From: an uncultured Caryophanales bacterium
GTDB lineage: Bacteria > Bacillota_I > Bacilli_A > RF39 > UBA660
Direction: 5' to 3'
Assembly: GCA_947169395.1 (NCBI GenBank)
Contig: CAMVPJ010000027.1
Location: 1-14,559, forward strand
Length of the DNA stretch: 14,559 bases
A model generated the notes under the pieces. The model saw nothing but the letters and a program-made list of their open reading frames with translations, did not search any database and was not told the origin of the DNA. Of this stretch, positions 2,708-14,559 are shown piece by piece. The position numbers were made by a program, and so were the translations under genes. How positions within the stretch are numbered: the first letter of the stretch is position 1; every line of letters starts with the position of its first letter.

Positions 2708-3646
2708 ATGAAAAAATATGTAATATTACTTTTAATATTATTCTTGCCATTTATGGTAAATGCTGCTACTTGTGATACTGATAAAATAGAAATAAAATCT
2801 ATTGATTTAGTTGAAAGTAGTAATGCTGTTGTTCAAAATAGTGATCCGTTTGCACAAGGAAAAGAAATTAAAGTAGATGTTAGTATGTCTAATGTAGGAG
2901 ATAATGCTAAATACAAATTAATTGTTAAGAATGATTCAGATGAAGATCTTGAATTTAACAAAGATAGTATTAATATTAATTCTCAATATTTAGATTATTC
3001 ATTTGATATTAGTGATAATAATATTATTAAGGCTAATTCTACTAAAGAGATATATTTAAATATTCAATATAAGAAAGAAGTTCCTGATTCTGCTTTTAAT
3101 GAGGGTGTATTTACTAATAATCAAGTAATGAATGTAGATTTATCTAATGAAAGTGTTGATGTAGAAAATCCTAAGACTGGTATCAGTATATTATTAGTGG
3201 CTTTATTAGCTGTTATTGTATTTAGTTTAACTATTATAGTTATAACTACTAATAAAAAATATAGTAAGTTAATGGTTATAATTATTACTCTTATGATGAT
3301 TATTCCTGTTAGTGTTTATGCTTTATGTAAGTGTAGTTTAAAAGTTGATTCTAGAGTTAGAATTGAAAAGAATGTTCAAAGTTTTTGTATAAAAGCTGTT
3401 TCTTCAGATTATTCTAGAATTTATTATTATCCATATGAGAGAGGTATGACTTGGAGTGATTTTATTAATAGTAATTATAATAATATCAGTCTTGGTGCTT
3501 TAGTAAGTGATGAAGAAGGAGTTTTATCAGTTCAATCAGGTGTTTGTTATAATATAGTAAAACTAAATAATATACCTGTTAGTATTAATGATAAGATTAA
3601 AAATAGACATGATGGTTGTTATGAAGAATATGAAAGTGTTTGTTAG
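2708..3646 (+). CDS. Surface protein with internal NPKTG sorting-like motif and second signal-like segment
   Basis: I do not recognise a named family for this 312-residue protein. A signal peptide (about 1-19, cut near VNAA) is followed by an extracellular beta-rich, Ig-like domain to about residue 150. NPKTG at 154-158 leads straight into a membrane segment (about 160-181) and a basic NKKYSK patch. This is the order of a sortase sorting signal, but the protein does not end there. A second hydrophobic segment (about 188-205) ends in VYA, like another signal peptide. It leads to CKC and a roughly 100-residue C-terminal domain that should lie outside the cell. That domain has a YPYERGMTW motif (Gly246-Trp249) and ends in Cys. 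The next gene is a full-length paralog whose ribosome binding site overlaps this stop codon. Topology and sorting are inferred; no sortase is in the window. Confidence 0.75.
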   Translation: MKKYVILLLILFLPFMVNAATCDTDKIEIKSIDLVESSNAVVQNSDPFAQGKEIKVDVSMSNVGDNAKYKLIVKNDSDEDLEFNKDSININSQYLDYSFDISDNNIIKANSTKEIYLNIQYKKEVPDSAFNEGVFTNNQVMNVDLSNESVDVENPKTGISILLVALLAVIVFSLTIIVITTNKKYSKLMVIIITLMMIIPVSVYALCKCSLKVDSRVRIEKNVQSFCIKAVSSDYSRIYYYPYERGMTWSDFINSNYNNISLGALVSDEEGVLSVQSGVCYNIVKLNNIPVSINDKIKNRHDGCYEEYESVC

Positions 3647-3657
3647 GGGATATGATT

Positions 3658-4623
3658 ATGAAAAGAATAGTTTATTTAGTTTTATTAATGGTTTTATTTA
3701 TACCATTTGTTGTTAATGCTGAAACATGTGAAGCTGAAAAAGTTAATATTAAATCAATTGATTTAGTTAAAACAAGTAGTGAAAAAGTTTCAGAACTTAA
3801 ACCTGCAACTGCTGAAGAAAGAGAAATTAATGTAGATTTATCTTTAGCAAATGTTGGAGATGAAGCTACTTATAAAATAGTAGTTGAAAACAAGTCAGTA
3901 GAAGACTATGACTTTGATAAAACTAGTTTAAAAATAGATTCTGATTATGTAACTTATTCTTTTGCATCAGATGATGATTCTACTATTATAAAAGCTAATT
4001 CTACTAAGACATTAACATTAACTGTTAAATATAAAAAAGAAGTGCCTGATAATGTATTAGTTAATGGAGAATATAATGATTCAAATATAATGGATATTAA
4101 TTTATCTAATGATATTATTGTTAATAATCCTAAGACTGGTATGAGTTTGCTAATTGGTTTATTAGTAATTGTATTTGTATTTAGCTTGATTGCATTTATA
4201 ATATCTGGTAAAAAGAGATATGCTACTACAATGGTTTTAGCAATTGCTTCTATATTAGTAATTCCTATGACAGTTAATGCTATTTGTAAATGTCAATTAA
4301 AATTAAATTCTAATGTTAAAATAGTTAAAGTATTTACTTATAAAGTTGACTATGTAAATTGTCGTTTACAAGACACTCAATATTTCCCATATGAATATGG
4401 AATGACTTGGAGAGAGTATTTTGAAAGTGATTATTATAGAAATGTTAATTATGAAGATAAATTAACACCTGAAATTATAAATGATGACAGACATTTCTTT
4501 TTAGAAAATTATTTATGTGACAATGCATATAACCTAGATTGTAAAAATTATGATATTGATTTAGATGATGTAATTGTTCCATCATTTATAGGATATTATC
4601 AAATAGGAGATTATATTTGTTAA
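3658..4623 (+). CDS. Paralogous NPKTG surface protein, second copy
   Basis: This 321-residue protein is a tandem paralog of the preceding gene and shares every architectural element. It has a signal peptide ending VNAE, an Ig-like outer domain and NPKTG at 157-161 followed by a membrane segment and GKKRY. A second signal-like hydrophobic segment ends VNAICKC, and a C-terminal domain carries YEYGMTW (Gly248-Trp251) and a final Cys. The two are clearly similar through residue 210 (for example KSIDLV, YKKEVPD, NPKTG). The C-terminal domains are much more divergent outside the GMTW region. I chose ATG at 3658 because AGGGGAT, overlapping the upstream stop codon, sits at the right distance; ATG at 3652 is too close and TTG at 3640 lacks a site. 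The overlap suggests translational coupling and joint expression. The function is unknown. Confidence 0.75.
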   Translation: MKRIVYLVLLMVLFIPFVVNAETCEAEKVNIKSIDLVKTSSEKVSELKPATAEEREINVDLSLANVGDEATYKIVVENKSVEDYDFDKTSLKIDSDYVTYSFASDDDSTIIKANSTKTLTLTVKYKKEVPDNVLVNGEYNDSNIMDINLSNDIIVNNPKTGMSLLIGLLVIVFVFSLIAFIISGKKRYATTMVLAIASILVIPMTVNAICKCQLKLNSNVKIVKVFTYKVDYVNCRLQDTQYFPYEYGMTWREYFESDYYRNVNYEDKLTPEIINDDRHFFLENYLCDNAYNLDCKNYDIDLDDVIVPSFIGYYQIGDYIC

Positions 4624-4747: not shown

Positions 4748-5380
4748 ATGAGAAAGTATAAAGAAGAAATTAAAGAAGAATTTAAAAATAATAGTATAGT
4801 ATTATCATTTGCATTATGTATTATTGTAATTGGAATATTATCAATATTTTTTAAAACAGGTTCTACATTATTAATAGGAATTGCTATATCTGGTTTATTA
4901 TTAACAATAATACAATGTATAAGTGAAGGGAATACTTTATTAAATATATTACCAGTATTTACTTTATTAATATTTGGTTTTTTTGAAAAATCTATTGCAA
5001 AGATTCCTGTTATTAATTTATTAGTAGATGATAATATTTGTTATTTTATAATTTTTCTTTCTTTAGCTATTACATTCTTTACTCAGTCATATAAAAATAT
5101 TATTTATAAGCATAAAGTAAGAGAACAATTAGTTAATTATAATAAAGAGAAAAATAGTATTGTATATAATCAATTAGAAGTATTAAAAAAAATATCTGAA
5201 ATGACATATGAAGCTAGAAATAAATCAAGTGATAAAGATGCTTTTAAAGATTTAATAAATTATATTGATCAAGAAGTGTTTGTTAGTAATGTAAAAAATA
5301 GTTTAATTAATACCGGAAATAGTAATTATAATATAGATGAAGTAGAGGAGTCTATTAAATTAAATAGTAAGAATAAATAA
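4748..5380 (+). CDS. Four-helix membrane protein of unknown function
   Basis: I do not recognise this 210-residue protein. It begins with a short charged N-terminus (residues 1-15, Lys/Glu-rich) and has four hydrophobic segments near 17-35, 40-58, 64-80 and 96-113. A polar, probably cytosolic tail of about 95 residues follows. The tail is Lys/Asn/Glu-rich with a helical, possibly coiled stretch around 128-160. There is no signal peptide, catalytic motif or known ligand site. AGGTGAAT sits at normal distance from the ATG. No terminator follows its stop. The first small-RNA promoter starts within five bases, so transcripts of this gene would probably run through that RNA and end at its terminator (5451-5479). 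Any functional link to the neighbouring peptide/RNA loci is speculation. Confidence 0.7.
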   Translation: MRKYKEEIKEEFKNNSIVLSFALCIIVIGILSIFFKTGSTLLIGIAISGLLLTIIQCISEGNTLLNILPVFTLLIFGFFEKSIAKIPVINLLVDDNICYFIIFLSLAITFFTQSYKNIIYKHKVREQLVNYNKEKNSIVYNQLEVLKKISEMTYEARNKSSDKDAFKDLINYIDQEVFVSNVKNSLINTGNSNYNIDEVEESIKLNSKNK

Positions 5381-5384
5381 TTTA

Positions 5385-5393
5385 TGTTATAAT
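5385..5393 (+). promoter_or_regulatory. Extended -10 promoter of small RNA A
   Basis: TGT followed by TATAAT at 5388-5393 is an extended -10. The same bases recur in front of small RNA B at 5656-5664. No clear -35 is seen. Confidence 0.65.
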
Positions 5394-5399
5394 AAATAT

Positions 5400-5480
5400 G
5401 AGGAACATTTAATTTTTGTATGTTAAGTGTTACCTATTATTAATGGTGTACCTAACTAGCAATAGTTAGGCTTTTTTTTA
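5400..5480 (+). ncRNA. Small RNA A, candidate type I antitoxin
   Basis: This is a predicted ~80-base RNA with its own promoter and no open reading frame. A 5' hairpin pairs AACATTTAA with TTAAGTGTT (one G-U). The 3' end is a terminator with CCTAACTA at 5451-5458, a GCAA loop, TAGTTAGG at 5463-5470 and a T run. It converges on the minus-strand peptide gene at 5478-5558. It also carries ACCTAACTA, which recurs in direct orientation at 5584-5592 and is therefore complementary to the leader of the peptide mRNA. This matches the direct-repeat logic of Fst/par RNA II. The RNA itself is inferred, not shown. Confidence 0.6.
5451..5479 (+). terminator. Terminator of small RNA A
   Basis: An eight-pair stem, CCTAACTA/TAGTTAGG, closed by a GCAA tetraloop and followed by C and eight T. 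It may also end transcripts of the upstream membrane-protein gene. Confidence 0.85.
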
Positions 5481-5558
5481 TTTTAGAATTACAAATAGTA
5501 ATACTAAATGTAGAAGGATGATTATAATCAAAACTGATATTAATCTATCTTTAAACAT
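5478..5558 (-). CDS. Small hydrophobic peptide A, candidate type I toxin
   Basis: The gene encodes a 26-residue peptide beginning MFKDRLIS and ending LLFVILK. A single unbroken Leu/Ile/Val helix fills about residues 7-25, with charge only at Lys3, Asp4, Arg5 and the final Lys. Such peptides in type I toxin-antitoxin systems insert into the cell's own membrane. I chose the inner ATG (5558) because GAAGGTGAT lies eight bases upstream; the in-frame ATG two codons earlier (5564) is too close to the site. Peptide B (5744-5824) is nearly identical. The five base differences give three conservative changes and two silent ones, which argues that the frame is translated. It does not show the Pro and Val-Gly core of Fst-family toxins and I cannot place it in another named family. 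The toxin role is inferred from size, composition and locus layout. Confidence 0.65.
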   Translation of the reverse strand: MFKDRLISVLIIIILLHLVLLFVILK

Positions 5559-5602
5559 AAGCATCACCTTCTTAAGAGGTATCACCTAACTAATTAAATG
5601 CT

Positions 5603-5616
5603 CCTATAGTATTATA
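5603..5616 (-). promoter_or_regulatory. Promoter -10 and start region of peptide A mRNA
   Basis: On the minus strand TATAAT occupies 5616-5611 and a start is expected near 5604. The leader begins AGGAGCATTTAAT, almost the same as the first bases of small RNA A on the other strand. The leader of about 45 bases can fold into a CATTTAA/TTAGGTG helix, followed by only four pairs over the ribosome binding site. Confidence 0.5.
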
Positions 5617-5655
5617 TTGATTATTTTAAATTAATTATTAAAAAATATTCATTTA

Positions 5656-5664
5656 TGTTATAAT
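5656..5664 (+). promoter_or_regulatory. Extended -10 promoter of small RNA B
   Basis: TGT then TATAAT at 5659-5664. The bases from TTTATG through AGGAACA match copy A exactly. Confidence 0.65.
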
Positions 5665-5670
5665 AAATAT

Positions 5671-5745
5671 GAGGAACACTTAATCGTGGTAGTTAAGTGC
5701 TACCTTTTGGTTAGACACCTAACTATTTAGTTAGGTGCTTTTTTT
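5671..5745 (+). ncRNA. Small RNA B, candidate type I antitoxin
   Basis: This is a predicted ~75-base RNA. Its 5' hairpin pairs AACACTTAA with TTAAGTGCT (one mismatch). The T-to-C change relative to copy A turns a G-U pair into G-C, which supports the fold. CACCTAACT at 5716-5724 pairs with AGTTAGGTG at 5729-5737 as the terminator. CACCTAAC also recurs at 5849-5856, so the RNA can pair with the peptide B leader; GGTTAGA just before it resembles GGTAG before the second repeat. The 5' loop differs strongly from that of RNA A, as expected if each RNA prefers its own mRNA. Existence and role are inferred. Confidence 0.6.
5716..5745 (+). terminator. Terminator of small RNA B
   Basis: A nine-pair stem, CACCTAACT/AGTTAGGTG, with an ATTT loop followed by GC and seven T. 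Read from the minus strand there is no T run after the stem, so the peptide mRNA may run on through the RNA region. Confidence 0.85.
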
Positions 5746-5824
5746 ATTTTAGAATTACAAATAGTAATGCTAAATGTAGTAGGATGATTATAATCAAAAG
5801 TGATATTAATCGATCTTTAAGCAT
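5744..5824 (-). CDS. Small hydrophobic peptide B, candidate type I toxin
   Basis: This is a 26-residue peptide starting MLKDRLIS and ending LLFVILK, identical to peptide A at 23 of 26 positions (Leu/Phe2, Leu/Val9 and Ala/Val19 differ). It is one hydrophobic helix with a charged N-terminal LKDR and a single His near the middle. The ribosome binding site is a perfect AAAGGAGGTGAT, eight bases before the chosen ATG. In the mRNA, ACCTCC (5846-5841) can pair with this GGAGGT (5837-5832) across an AAA loop and would hide the site. Copy A has both a weaker site and a weaker hairpin, so the two features change together. Such self-occlusion is typical of Fst-type toxin mRNAs. The family is not recognised, and a membrane toxin role is inferred. 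Confidence 0.68.
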   Translation of the reverse strand: MLKDRLISLLIIIILLHLALLFVILK

Positions 5825-5869
5825 AAGCATCACCTCCTTTGGAGGTAGCACCTAACAATTAAAGGTTCC

Positions 5870-5906
5870 TATATTATTATTAGAAGAAATACATATATTT
5901 TGACAA
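5870..5906 (-). promoter_or_regulatory. Possible promoter of peptide B mRNA
   Basis: On the minus strand TTGTCA (5906-5901) is followed after 18 bases by TAATAA (5882-5877). The transcript would begin near 5870 with AGGAACCTTTAAT. The -35 lies on the opposite strand of the TTGACA of the next gene's promoter, so the two promoters are divergent and overlap. Confidence 0.4.
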
Positions 5907-5928
5907 TATTTATATTTTTTATTATTAT
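5900..5928 (+). promoter_or_regulatory. Promoter of the phospholipase C-like gene
   Basis: A perfect TTGACA at 5900-5905, a 17-base spacer and TATTAT at 5923-5928. It is the best -35/-10 pair in the window. GGAG at 5944-5947 then serves the ATG at 5955. Confidence 0.75.
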
Positions 5929-5954
5929 ATGATTGTAGGTTATGGAGTGATAAT

Positions 5955-6617
5955 ATGCCTTGTTGGACAATACATACTGCAATAGCAAAAGATTTAAATA
6001 AAGAATTAAAACTTAATCCTGATTTATTATATTATGGAGCAATATTACCTGATGTAGATAAAAATAATAATTATGGTAAATTTAAAGCTCATTTTTATAT
6101 AAAGCATCCTAAGTATTTAGAAGAAGTTATTGTAGATTTTAATCAATTTATGGAAAAATATAAAAATAAATTAGACAAAGATTTAATAATAGGATATTAC
6201 ATTCATTTATTAACTGATTATTATTTCAATGAATATATGTTTAATAATACTTATGTTCTTGATGATAAAGGATATATCAGAGAAATTAAATTACTTCTAG
6301 GGTCATCTAATGATATAGAGTCTAGGAGAAGGTTTAAACAGTTAGATTTTATTATGTATGGAGGGTATTTACTTAGAAATAATAGAGTTGGTATTCCTAA
6401 AGATAAAGATATTATTAATAAGCATTTATGTGAATTAGAAGATTGTTTTCTAAGTGAAGATGAAGTTAATAAAAGAATAGATTATATGAATAGTAATGAT
6501 TTTTATGAATATAATAATAGAGAAGAGAATTATTGTTTATTTACTAGAGAGGTATATGATAAATTATATTCTGATTGTTTAGATTTTATTAAAGATAAAT
6601 TAACTAAAATTAGTTAG
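5955..6617 (+). CDS. Zinc-dependent phospholipase C-like protein
   Basis: This 220-residue protein resembles the zinc-dependent phospholipase C / S1-P1 nuclease-like group common in Firmicutes. Visible family marks are the N-terminal PCWTIHTAIAKDL (His7), YYGAILPDVD (Asp33), KAHF (His46) and GYYIHLLTDYYFN (His84, Asp88). They occur in the order and spacing expected of metal ligands. The C-terminal half is charged and helical, with no further motif I recognise. There is no signal peptide, unlike secreted phospholipases, so it probably acts in the cytosol. Its substrate may not be a phospholipid at all. It has its own promoter and a GGAGTGAT site. A weak hairpin (TAACTA/TAGTTA) with a T run overlaps the stop. 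Fold assignment is fairly sure; activity is unknown. Confidence 0.7.
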   Translation: MPCWTIHTAIAKDLNKELKLNPDLLYYGAILPDVDKNNNYGKFKAHFYIKHPKYLEEVIVDFNQFMEKYKNKLDKDLIIGYYIHLLTDYYFNEYMFNNTYVLDDKGYIREIKLLLGSSNDIESRRRFKQLDFIMYGGYLLRNNRVGIPKDKDIINKHLCELEDCFLSEDEVNKRIDYMNSNDFYEYNNREENYCLFTREVYDKLYSDCLDFIKDKLTKIS

Positions 6618-12856: not shown

Positions 12857-13183
12857 ATGGCAATAACAAGTGAATCTCAATTATTGGATATAGGAAAGAT
12901 TAGATCTGGGTATGAAAAATATATGGATTCTTTAGAAGGGTTTATAGCTGCGGCTAAAATAGTTTATGAAGCAGGTGCAACGTGCACTAAAAAAGCTTTG
13001 TCAGTTGATGGAGGAACAATGCAGCCTACATTATATGAATTAGGGCGTACTATTTCTGATATGGCTACAACTTATGGCAATGCTGCTAATGAGTTTTATT
13101 CTAGTGCAACAGCTTTATATAATGCACAAGTAGCTGAATTGAATGCATATTATGAGAGTTTGGAAAATCAAGAAAATGATTAA
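12857..13183 (+). CDS. Small helical WXG100/LXG-accessory-like protein
   Basis: This 108-residue protein looks like a two-helix hairpin of the kind exported with type VII secretion cargo. The first helix is IRSGYEKYMDSLEGFIAAAKIVYEAG, read as two overlapping parts either side of residue 25. A turn around CTKKALSVDGG (about 43-53) follows. The second helix covers about 60-103 (ELGRTISDMATTYGNAAN, then Tyr/Ala-rich). There is no signal peptide and no classical Trp-X-Gly in the turn, so WXG100 membership is not certain. GAGGGTGA precedes the ATG, and a TATAAA at 12835-12840 is a possible -10. It lies 18 bases upstream of a large repeat-rich protein gene in the same direction. That small-partner-before-large-cargo order is usual in LXG operons. 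Codon use is less A/T-biased than in the rest of the window. Confidence 0.5.
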   Translation: MAITSESQLLDIGKIRSGYEKYMDSLEGFIAAAKIVYEAGATCTKKALSVDGGTMQPTLYELGRTISDMATTYGNAANEFYSSATALYNAQVAELNAYYESLENQEND

Positions 13184-13201
13184 TAGATAAGGAGAATTTA
13201 T

Positions 13202-14559
13202 ATGGCAAAATTAGAGTATGAAAAATCTTTAGTAGATCAAACGTTAGATATACTTGCATCAGCTAAGGAACCATTAGAAGATATTGAATCTGATATGTCT
13301 TCTGCACTTGGAATTATTTTAGGCGCAAGAGGTGTAGAAGAATTAGATACAAGCGGTATTTCAAAAGGAACAAGCGCACCTGACCAATGTATTCAAGAAA
13401 TAGATAAAAATATTCAACTTATTCAAGAAAAGGCAGAAGCTATTGTTAAATATAATGAAGAAATTGATTCAATGGGGGTTACCCAAAGACTATTTTCAAC
13501 ACTTGCTTTTGGTACAGCAAAATTTACTGAAGGCTTTTTCAAAGCAGGTGAGCAAATTGTTGATGGATTTGCTTCAGTACTTGGAATGGCAGCTGGTATA
13601 TTTAGTCCTTCAGCTAAAGAAAAAATAGGAAATTTTATAGAAAAAGACCATGTTGGTGATGCATTTAATGATCTTTATAATGATGAATTTAAAGATATAG
13701 TACAAGCAAGTTATATGAAAAGAGATGGGGCTGGAGCTAAAATATGTGAATTTTTCGGTACTGCAATTGGATATTCAGTTGCTATTCAAACAGCAGGAAG
13801 CATATTTGGAATTTCAACGAGAGTTTCAGCAGCTGCACCAACTACCAATTCGCTTTCTAGTCTTGGAAAATATGCTGTTCAGGTTGCAACAGATAAAGCA
13901 ACTATATTTGCAGCGACAACTACAGGAATTGGTGGTTCAGGAGCAGCTATGCAAGCCGGATTAAAAGGCGGACTTGATTATAATGATGCTTATTTAAGAA
14001 GTATTAAGTCAGGAGTTGCTGCAAGTGCACTTACAATAGGCGCAAGTACCTTGTTTGCAGTTGCTGGAGCGGCTACAAAAAATGCTTTAAGAGATTGGAA
14101 AAATGGTAGAGGAACTTCTTCAGGCAAAGGTACAGGAGGTCCTGAAGGTGATGGAGGAGGATCTGGAGGTTCCGGAGGCGATGGCGGTGGCTCTGGAGGC
14201 GATGGCGGAAACTCTGGAGGCAATGGAAACGGTAACAATGGAACTAATGGTAACAACGGAACTAATGGTAACAACGGAACTAATGGTAACAACGGTACTA
14301 ATGGTAACAATGGTACTAATGGTTCTAATGGAACTAATGGTAACAATGGAACTAATGGTTCTAATGGTACGAATACTAATGGAACTAATGGTTCTAACGG
14401 AGCGTCACAAAGTGCTGATGATATATTGAATGGTGAAGGCAAAAAAGGTACAAGTGGTACAGAAAGTACTAATAAAGGTTCAAATGGAACAGGTAATACA
14501 GAAGGTACTAATAAAGGTTCAAATGGAACAGGTAATACAGAAGGTACTAATAAAGGTTC
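13202..14559 (+). CDS. Large repeat-rich protein, probable type VII (LXG-like) secreted cargo, incomplete
   Basis: The gene is open to the window edge: 452 codons are present and the C-terminus is missing. ATG at 13202 has AAGGAG seven bases upstream. Residues 1-95 are helical and polar (MAKLEYEKSLVDQTLDILAS, IQEIDKNIQLIQEKAEAIVK), like the N-terminal export domain of LXG proteins, though I cannot confirm the LXG family. About 97-305 is rich in Gly/Ala, with three hydrophobic glycine-zipper-like stretches (near 119-132, 186-206 and 273-296). These could insert into or cross a membrane. From about 307 it becomes Gly/Ser/Asp-rich. Eight tandem 18-base units encoding G-N/S-N-G-T-N follow from residue 344. 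A perfect 39-base repeat (GTNKGSNGTGNTE) runs off the edge. There is no Sec signal peptide. The C-terminal effector or adhesion domain is not visible, so toxin or surface-protein roles remain open. Confidence 0.6.
   Translation, partial: MAKLEYEKSLVDQTLDILASAKEPLEDIESDMSSALGIILGARGVEELDTSGISKGTSAPDQCIQEIDKNIQLIQEKAEAIVKYNEEIDSMGVTQRLFSTLAFGTAKFTEGFFKAGEQIVDGFASVLGMAAGIFSPSAKEKIGNFIEKDHVGDAFNDLYNDEFKDIVQASYMKRDGAGAKICEFFGTAIGYSVAIQTAGSIFGISTRVSAAAPTTNSLSSLGKYAVQVATDKATIFAATTTGIGGSGAAMQAGLKGGLDYNDAYLRSIKSGVAASALTIGASTLFAVAGAATKNALRDWKNGRGTSSGKGTGGPEGDGGGSGGSGGDGGGSGGDGGNSGGNGNGNNGTNGNNGTNGNNGTNGNNGTNGNNGTNGSNGTNGNNGTNGSNGTNTNGTNGSNGASQSADDILNGEGKKGTSGTESTNKGSNGTGNTEGTNKGSNGTGNTEGTNKG
14231..14374 (+). 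repeat. Eight tandem 18-base coding repeats (G-N/S-N-G-T-N)
   Basis: Units begin at 14231, 14249, 14267, 14285, 14303, 14321, 14339 and 14357. Third positions vary (GGA/GGT, AAC/AAT) and TCT replaces AAC in two units, while the peptide stays regular. A degenerate remainder continues to about 14404. The repeats are in frame and form a flexible hydrophilic linker. Confidence 0.9.
14465..14559 (+). repeat. 39-base tandem coding repeat running off the window edge
   Basis: Copies start at 14465, 14504 and 14543, the last one cut after 17 bases. They are identical except for the first base of copy one (A for G). Each encodes G/S-T-N-K-G-S-N-G-T-G-N-T-E. The near-perfect DNA identity indicates recent expansion, and copy number may vary between strains. 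Confidence 0.9.

Follow-up and report, generated by a model that had tools for sequence, protein, structure and literature searches.

In Bacillus subtilis, the txpA/RatA and bsrG/SR4 systems consist of convergent genes with long complementarity between the mRNA and the antisense RNA, and the enterobacterial Ibs/Sib, ShoB, TisB, ZorO, and Ldr systems encode a short hydrophobic single helix within other RNA organizations. A long convergent overlap of the toxin mRNA and the antisense RNA has also been described for the type I pairs of C. difficile, CD2517.1-RCd8 among others (PMC6563280). The par locus of pAD1 combines convergent RNAs with direct repeats, a 5' stem-loop that hides the Shine-Dalgarno sequence, and a bidirectional terminator (PMC7472228, PMC8309996), and its Fst peptide requires charged residues at the K and D positions (PMC7472228). 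Functional metastable structures are known from a Helicobacter toxin mRNA (PMC6733600).

The window analyzed here, a DNA stretch of 14,559 nucleotides, contains two tandem units, each of which is probably a chromosomal type I toxin-antitoxin-like pair. They are best read as members of a new family of type I toxin-antitoxin-like pairs, whose plan resembles that of par/Fst and whose peptides are devoid of the PXXXG motif of Fst. A new type I family had already been proposed in the first-pass annotation, and the proposal is now backed by a conserved frame, a conserved convergent structured RNA, complementarity that is unit specific on average, and the lack of an above-cut-off match to any curated family.

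The units are direct copies located at positions 5380-5890 with a spacing of 266 bp. At ~265 bp, they are longer than the ~230 bp originally assigned to them, while the duplication itself is borne out by the aligned pairs 5473-5597/5739-5863 (90% identical) and 5348-5420/5619-5691 (81%). In each unit, a minus-strand frame of 26 codons with a Shine-Dalgarno sequence faces a convergent plus-strand RNA. In unit A, an extended -10 sequence (TATGTTATAAT, read directly at 5383..5393 and similar in near relatives) precedes the predicted antisense RNA A (5400..5479, plus strand, start at ~5400), which consists of a 5' hairpin (~5401-5435), a terminator stem (5451-5470), and a T-run, and contributes a row to the alignment A4 discussed below. 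The toxin-like peptide A (26 aa, MFKDRLISVLIIIILLHLVLLFVILK) is encoded on the minus strand at 5478..5558 and belongs to a group with signs of purifying selection. Its Shine-Dalgarno sequence, AAGAAGG, is found at 5567..5573; the leader address GTTAGGTG, complementary to the terminator stem by direct reading and duplex energies, at 5583..5590; and a -10-like TATAAT of the peptide mRNA, with a predicted start at ~5605, at 5611..5616, all on the minus strand. Unit B repeats this layout, with the same extended -10 sequence read on the plus strand at 5654..5664 and the predicted antisense RNA B (5671..5745, plus strand) comprising a 5' hairpin, a terminator stem at 5716-5737, and a T-run. On its minus strand are the toxin-like peptide B (26 aa, MLKDRLISLLIIIILLHLALLFVILK, 5744..5824, likewise from a group with signs of purifying selection), the Shine-Dalgarno sequence GGAGG (5833..5837), predicted by folding to be paired in the leader hairpin, and the leader address GTTAGGTGC (5848..5856, from direct reading and duplex energies). 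The promoter-like sequence of peptide mRNA B (5876..5906) was read directly as TTGTCA at 5906-5901 and a -10-like TAATAAT at 5882-5876, with a predicted mRNA start at ~5870.

A sigma-70 scan of positions 5300-5960 remained at chance level (7 sites found versus 5.9 expected); its list includes neither the extended -10 sequences nor the promoter-like sequence of peptide mRNA B. Terminator-like sites in the same region number three, all on the plus strand, versus 0.1 in shuffles, and each plus-strand terminator sits opposite the stop codon of its unit's peptide frame. The first-pass annotation had described minus-strand 26-codon frames behind ribosome binding sites, convergent plus-strand RNAs with an extended -10, a 5' hairpin, and a terminator, and a direct repeat common to the antisense RNA and the peptide leader. 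The frames with their Shine-Dalgarno sequences and the -10 sequences were confirmed by direct reading, the predicted RNAs are supported by the comparison of terminators with shuffles and by fold z-scores, and the repeat was read as ACCTAACTA at 5450-5458 and 5584-5592 in unit A and as CACCTAAC at 5716-5723 and 5849-5856 in unit B. Two features had been missed: the 3' region of the peptide mRNA itself also contains the complement of the direct repeat, and the peptide mRNA and the antisense RNA have 5' ends that are alike in the same sense.

Mechanically called ORFs extend each peptide frame to an upstream GTG, which gives 35 aa; the 26-codon start is preferred because of the Shine-Dalgarno spacing seen on reading. 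For comparative analysis, 81 units were extracted from 187 sequences, mostly by means of a peptide profile, so that conserved frames are favored in this set. The pN/pS ratio of the peptide frame was 0.32, versus 0.58-1.70 in the five other frames, in 28 nearest-neighbor pairs of 27-codon frames (72-95% identical, every sequence used once). Across all pairs of the five units from the window and from the nearest related genome (G001), which were found by DNA, it was 0.21. Judged by these ratios, the peptide frame is under purifying selection, and its translation is predicted. The 19-residue hydropathy maximum reaches 3.42 in peptide A and 3.27 in peptide B. Among the units, the peptides are 21-30 aa long, 78 of 81 carry KD near the N terminus, and two contain proline. 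A short hydrophobic peptide frame under coding selection, as expected of a type I toxin-antitoxin pair, is thus present in the units.

Searches of curated libraries are consistent with a new family. Rfam gave no matches in the window at the gathering score. The Pfam scan covered both window peptides in their 35-aa form, and Pfam, NCBIfam, and PHROGs were searched with peptide B and five relatives. Pfam and NCBIfam returned nothing above the cut-off, the lowest E value being 0.045 (DUF2417, 13.7 bits versus 25, for a relative); PHROGs, which has no cut-offs, returned only E values of 0.5 and 0.75; and the Fst profile (PF13955) had no hit among the scanned peptides. The earlier statement that the peptide does not resemble TxpA/BsrG, Ibs, TisB, or Ldr holds in this comparison via family libraries, which yielded no family match above cut-off. 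In the literature, no title on such pairs in this lineage appeared among the matches listed, and four peptide strings had no match in the papers searched.

The predicted antisense RNAs fold better than their shuffles, with z-scores of -3.30 (A) and -3.74 (B); the single-sequence fold of antisense RNA B differs from the two-hairpin form. After nine of the 81 units were skipped and three duplicates removed, 69 entered the antisense alignment, and A4 retained 66 after three near-identical ones were dropped. In A4, the two hand-given hairpins are paired in 92.9% of cells, against 28-46% in slid controls. Both-side changes occur in 11 of 18 pairs, with 56 such cells versus 12.0 in shuffles (0/500), a significance that is overstated here, as in the leader and address tests below, since shuffles and permutations ignore relatedness. 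By this alignment, both antisense hairpins covary. RNAalifold alone recovered only the terminator hairpin (a consensus of 7 pairs), and a model built on that consensus was dropped in favor of the two-hairpin model. Forty hits of the antisense-RNA model R2 were picked by hand, mostly for having no listed peptide hit beside them. Opposite 25 of these lies an intact Shine-Dalgarno-led hydrophobic frame; the same test was passed at 59 of 2000 random positions in the fetched loci, which are themselves unit bearing. Besides variant forms of the same peptide, the frames facing R2 hits encode others (MKKREYN..., MKKKDLLI..., MKRRENFQ..., MNKKDILI...). The remaining 15 hits have no intact frame by this test, and some of them show visible remnants. 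Loose -10 patterns occur in 60 of 81 units for the peptide side and in 65 of 79 for the antisense side, counts that are uncorrected for chance. What a type I pair calls for, an antisense RNA complementary to the toxin mRNA, corresponds here to a convergent structured element with such complementarity and a predicted RNA. In a comparison of 19 units, those of L005-L011 and others were seen to carry an extra hairpin (~ATGAAGGAAACTTCAT) between the antisense -10 and GGAAC, which is missing from the units of the window, L001, L002, and L012.

The leader of the peptide mRNA was analyzed in 50 of 61 sequences, the 11 left out including near-duplicates, two insertion-disrupted units, and contig-edge units. 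In the hand-given structure, the Shine-Dalgarno helix is paired in 77.1% of cells and holds all 35 double-change cells, versus 10.7 in shuffles (0/500). The number of its pairs with double changes is unremarkable (6 versus 4.1; 37/500), as are the pair types (128/500); slid versions of the structure reach 7 pairs and 23 cells; and the first (5') hairpin has zero double changes in these 50 leaders. The Shine-Dalgarno hairpin may therefore be said to covary in part. The leader folds have z-scores of -0.80 (A) and -1.40 (B), and the Shine-Dalgarno sequence lies in a 5' stem-loop in the fold of unit B, while unit A folds otherwise. In 53 of 79 units, the peptide strand continues past the complement of the antisense 5' hairpin into a T-run of at least four, which suggests that this run marks the end of the peptide mRNA in these relatives. 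The window units have no such run, so the 3' ends of their peptide mRNAs are uncertain.

Just upstream of the Shine-Dalgarno hairpin, the leaders carry a short address with the consensus GTTRRGTGX. The central hairpin is part of the antisense RNA, and its complement is part of the 3' end of the peptide mRNA itself. The strict pattern RRGYG+X was readable in 50 of 69 units (the 19 dropped comprise lost leaders and pattern misses), and in 42 of the 50 the X forms a Watson-Crick pair with the antisense base before YACC (shuffled mean, 17.9; maximum, 30 in 10,000). The eight misfits include the two window units and the two G001 units of L001. Six of the stretches contain two readable units: in L005, L152, and L166, the two units differ in their addresses, and each address fits the antisense arm of its own unit; L176 has the same fitting address twice; and L001 and the window show no fit. 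For 58 of the 69 units, the cognate mean duplex energy lies below all 5000 permutations with either arm. With an 18-nt segment, it is -15.43 versus -13.01 for others on the antisense arm and -16.09 versus -13.64 on the mRNA's own 3' arm; on average, 69% (antisense arm) and 75% (own 3' arm) of the non-cognates are weaker. On average, the address thus fits its own unit's central hairpin better than those of other units. With the 14-nt leader core, the own 3' arm is better in 44 of 52 units and the antisense arm in 5, with 3 ties. A role of the direct repeat solely as an mRNA-antisense contact was rejected as over-simple, since the leader core mostly prefers the mRNA's own 3' arm. Within the window, the address is not unit specific: the pairing energies of leader A are -17.4 (antisense A), -16.2 (antisense B), and -11.9 (own 3' arm), and those of leader B are -17.6, -13.1, and -17.2, respectively, so that the two neighboring units may cross-silence each other. 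In the family at large, many neighbors appear to be kept apart by a short address, which changes in step with its target. In L305 and L308, from a genus (g74) with many copies, the leader reads ATGGGTGTTTT, and the antisense arm has a matching AAATACCC.

The searches of related genomes that had been suggested with a covariance model and the peptide recovered the family widely. G001, which has 27% of sampled words in common with the window, contains three units. Two of these occupy the orthologous site and have the same genes on either side. The DNA of unit B matched 24 of 59 relatives at an E value of 0.001, many of the matches being short; four (G038, G041, G045, and G048) fall outside one bacterial family, f1, and are taken for chance (~20-40 nt, E values of 2e-4 to 7e-4). 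A 12-row peptide profile was found in 24 of 39 genomes of the genus at an E value of 0.01. A 25-row profile at 0.001 was found in 219 of 385 genomes of the order and 75 of 117 genera, all in f1, with up to 15 matches per genome, part of which were read as units. Peptide-profile samples of the class (296 genomes) and phylum (295 genomes) yielded 14 hits and 2 hits, again all in f1, and R2 was detected in 90 of 146 genomes of the order and in 2 of 100 of the class, both in f1. In the sampled genomes, the family is restricted to this one bacterial family. Unit B DNA had no match in phage or plasmid records, and the exact pattern of the antisense 5' hairpin had none in viral contigs. The named records with the most similar ParE are labeled uncultured Bacilli and the like and come from rumen, rabbit, and other guts; L123, labeled uncultured Erysipelotrichaceae, carries a unit.

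To the right of the units, positions 5955-6617 encode a Zn-dependent phospholipase C-like protein (PF00882). Among the 39 genus genomes, close orthologues of this gene (76-81%) are found only in G001 and G008; 27 others have distant matches. The site holds two intact units in G001 and only remnants in G008, where the 26-codon frame is open with a TTG start and the leader, Shine-Dalgarno sequence, and antisense terminator are gone on reading. Relatives that keep the DNA and break the frame had been named as evidence against the pair; the G008 site partly corresponds to that description, and the antisense half has been lost there, too. No true empty orthologous site was found, and the 80 named ParE loci had no neighboring phospholipase C-like gene in the stretch examined. 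In L160 and L182, the antisense region is cut by an insertion-like sequence, and the Shine-Dalgarno sequence of L182 is degenerate. The insertion-like end that replaces the antisense region carries GTCCAACTTTTGGGG. The leader and frame of L160 look intact on reading despite the cut, which argues against strong toxicity there, barring an RNA acting in trans from another copy or a peptide that is not made. Elsewhere in the window, positions 12857-14557 encode proteins of 108 aa and 452 aa, the latter truncated at the end of the window, with long Asn-Gly-Thr repeats, and positions 2708-4623 encode two neighboring membrane proteins of similar appearance (312 and 327 aa) that carry NPKTG motifs; neither pair had a Pfam hit at an E value of 0.001. 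The layout of the former recalls a WXG100/LXG type VII secretion pair.

Coding selection, the RNA structures, the average fit of the addresses, and the restriction to one family in the samples were computed directly. For transcription, RNA-RNA binding, the order of events, and toxicity, we infer the following scheme. A short mRNA from one strand would encode a membrane peptide of 26 residues with a single helix; in this mRNA, the Shine-Dalgarno sequence would be folded into the leader hairpin, with the address just upstream. The other strand would produce an antisense RNA of ~75-80 nt (longer in relatives with the extra 5' hairpin) that converges on the gene and has its end at the gene's stop codon. 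Provided that the mRNA extends as far as the hairpin facing the antisense 5' end, its whole 3' end would be complementary to the antisense RNA. The address could then pair either with the mRNA's own 3' end, giving a closed, silent mRNA, or with the antisense terminator arm, and either contact may be the one that silences the mRNA here. Should the antisense RNA be lost faster than the mRNA, translation would follow, and the peptide would harm the membrane. A wider reading, put forward tentatively and with somewhat less than an even chance, is that a lineage-wide superfamily of type I pairs in one Bacilli family uses one RNA chassis for several different membrane peptides.

The computed evidence fits any antisense-controlled peptide, including a small membrane protein that is not toxic but acts as a regulator or stress peptide and whose dose is limited by a cis-antisense RNA, and one unit, L160, seems to tolerate the loss of that RNA. 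However, match counts of up to 15 in a single genome, the use of one RNA chassis for different hydrophobic peptides, and the 15 of 40 antisense hits without an intact frame would be more usual in toxin-antitoxin turnover than for a housekeeping regulator, which makes this alternative unlikely. The units might instead be miniature inverted-repeat elements, non-autonomous transposons in which the similar 5' ends act as terminal inverted repeats and the frame is incidental. They are indeed multicopy, 76 of 81 overlap no ORF of at least 80 codons, and the two ends of a unit show inverted similarity. Yet there is no target-site duplication (the best 6-mer offset pair occurs in 3 of 56 units, with shuffled maxima of 3-5), conservation declines gradually past the inverted repeats, across the promoter regions, and the frame is under coding selection, so that a transposon origin of this kind is extremely improbable.

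A divergent branch of the Fst/par family itself would account for the convergent RNAs, the direct repeat, the hidden Shine-Dalgarno sequence, and the charged K-D near the N terminus in 78 of 81 peptides, as in Fst (PMC7472228). Against such a branch, PXXXG occurs in none of the 81 peptides, in accord with the earlier remark that the Pro and Val-Gly core of Fst is lacking; Pfam gave no Fst hit; the central hairpin in the window has a T-run on one strand only; and the repeat lies inside the stem of that hairpin. The Fst profile was found in 0 of 60 genomes of the order, an insensitive test, as the profile hit only 1 of 14 control genomes (Lactococcus lactis), and that below the cut-off. Membership in the Fst/par family is therefore very unlikely, and a new type I toxin-antitoxin-like family is still the best reading.

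Reading frames this short are often missed by gene callers, so that whole families can go unseen; this one, apparently undescribed so far, matches 219 of the 385 sampled genomes of the order. Its units provide a natural series for testing the evolution of antisense specificity, and L160 and L182 are a possible natural test of a toxin without its antitoxin. In small-genome bacteria, known from gut assemblies, the family is also a candidate factor for stability or stress tolerance.

Compared with the described systems, the units share with the Ibs/Sib, ShoB, TisB, ZorO, and Ldr systems the short hydrophobic helix, a comparison made via family libraries only. They resemble the C. difficile type I pairs in their convergent genes and long toxin mRNA-antisense complementarity (PMC6563280). 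The C. difficile toxins tabulated there, however, are 34-59 aa long, versus 21-30 aa here; a leader address like that of the units is not described for these pairs in the accessible part of that source; and a number of the C. difficile loci are located within prophages or next to CRISPR arrays (PMC6563280), whereas unit B and the hairpin pattern had no phage, plasmid, or viral matches. The closest likeness in plan is to par/Fst of pAD1 and the chromosomal Fst loci (Fst/Ldr family), with a convergent toxin mRNA and small antisense RNA, direct repeats as a second pairing site, a Shine-Dalgarno sequence in a 5' stem-loop, and a short peptide that forms one helix and bears charged K and D residues at its N terminus (PMC7472228). 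Of the Fst/par-type organization assigned in the first-pass annotation, the convergent RNAs, the repeat, and the Shine-Dalgarno hairpin (in unit B) stand, and the bidirectional terminator does not, positions 5300-5960 containing plus-strand terminators only. The repeat that provides the second pairing site, in the leader and the antisense RNA, is single, whereas par has DRa and DRb. Unlike in par/Fst, only the antisense side of the hairpin between the genes carries a T-run in the window, the repeat forms an arm of this central hairpin, the 5' hairpins of the two RNAs are similar, and the 5' hairpin of the antisense RNA may be opposite the point where the peptide mRNA ends; the peptides have VILK, VVLI, or IKK at their C termini, whereas Fst has a charged tail of ~7 residues. 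Because neither PXXXG nor a shared bidirectional terminator was found when looked for, the family is not filed under Fst; the KD of 78 of the 81 peptides, together with the need of Fst for charged K and D, may nevertheless reflect a very distant tie to it.
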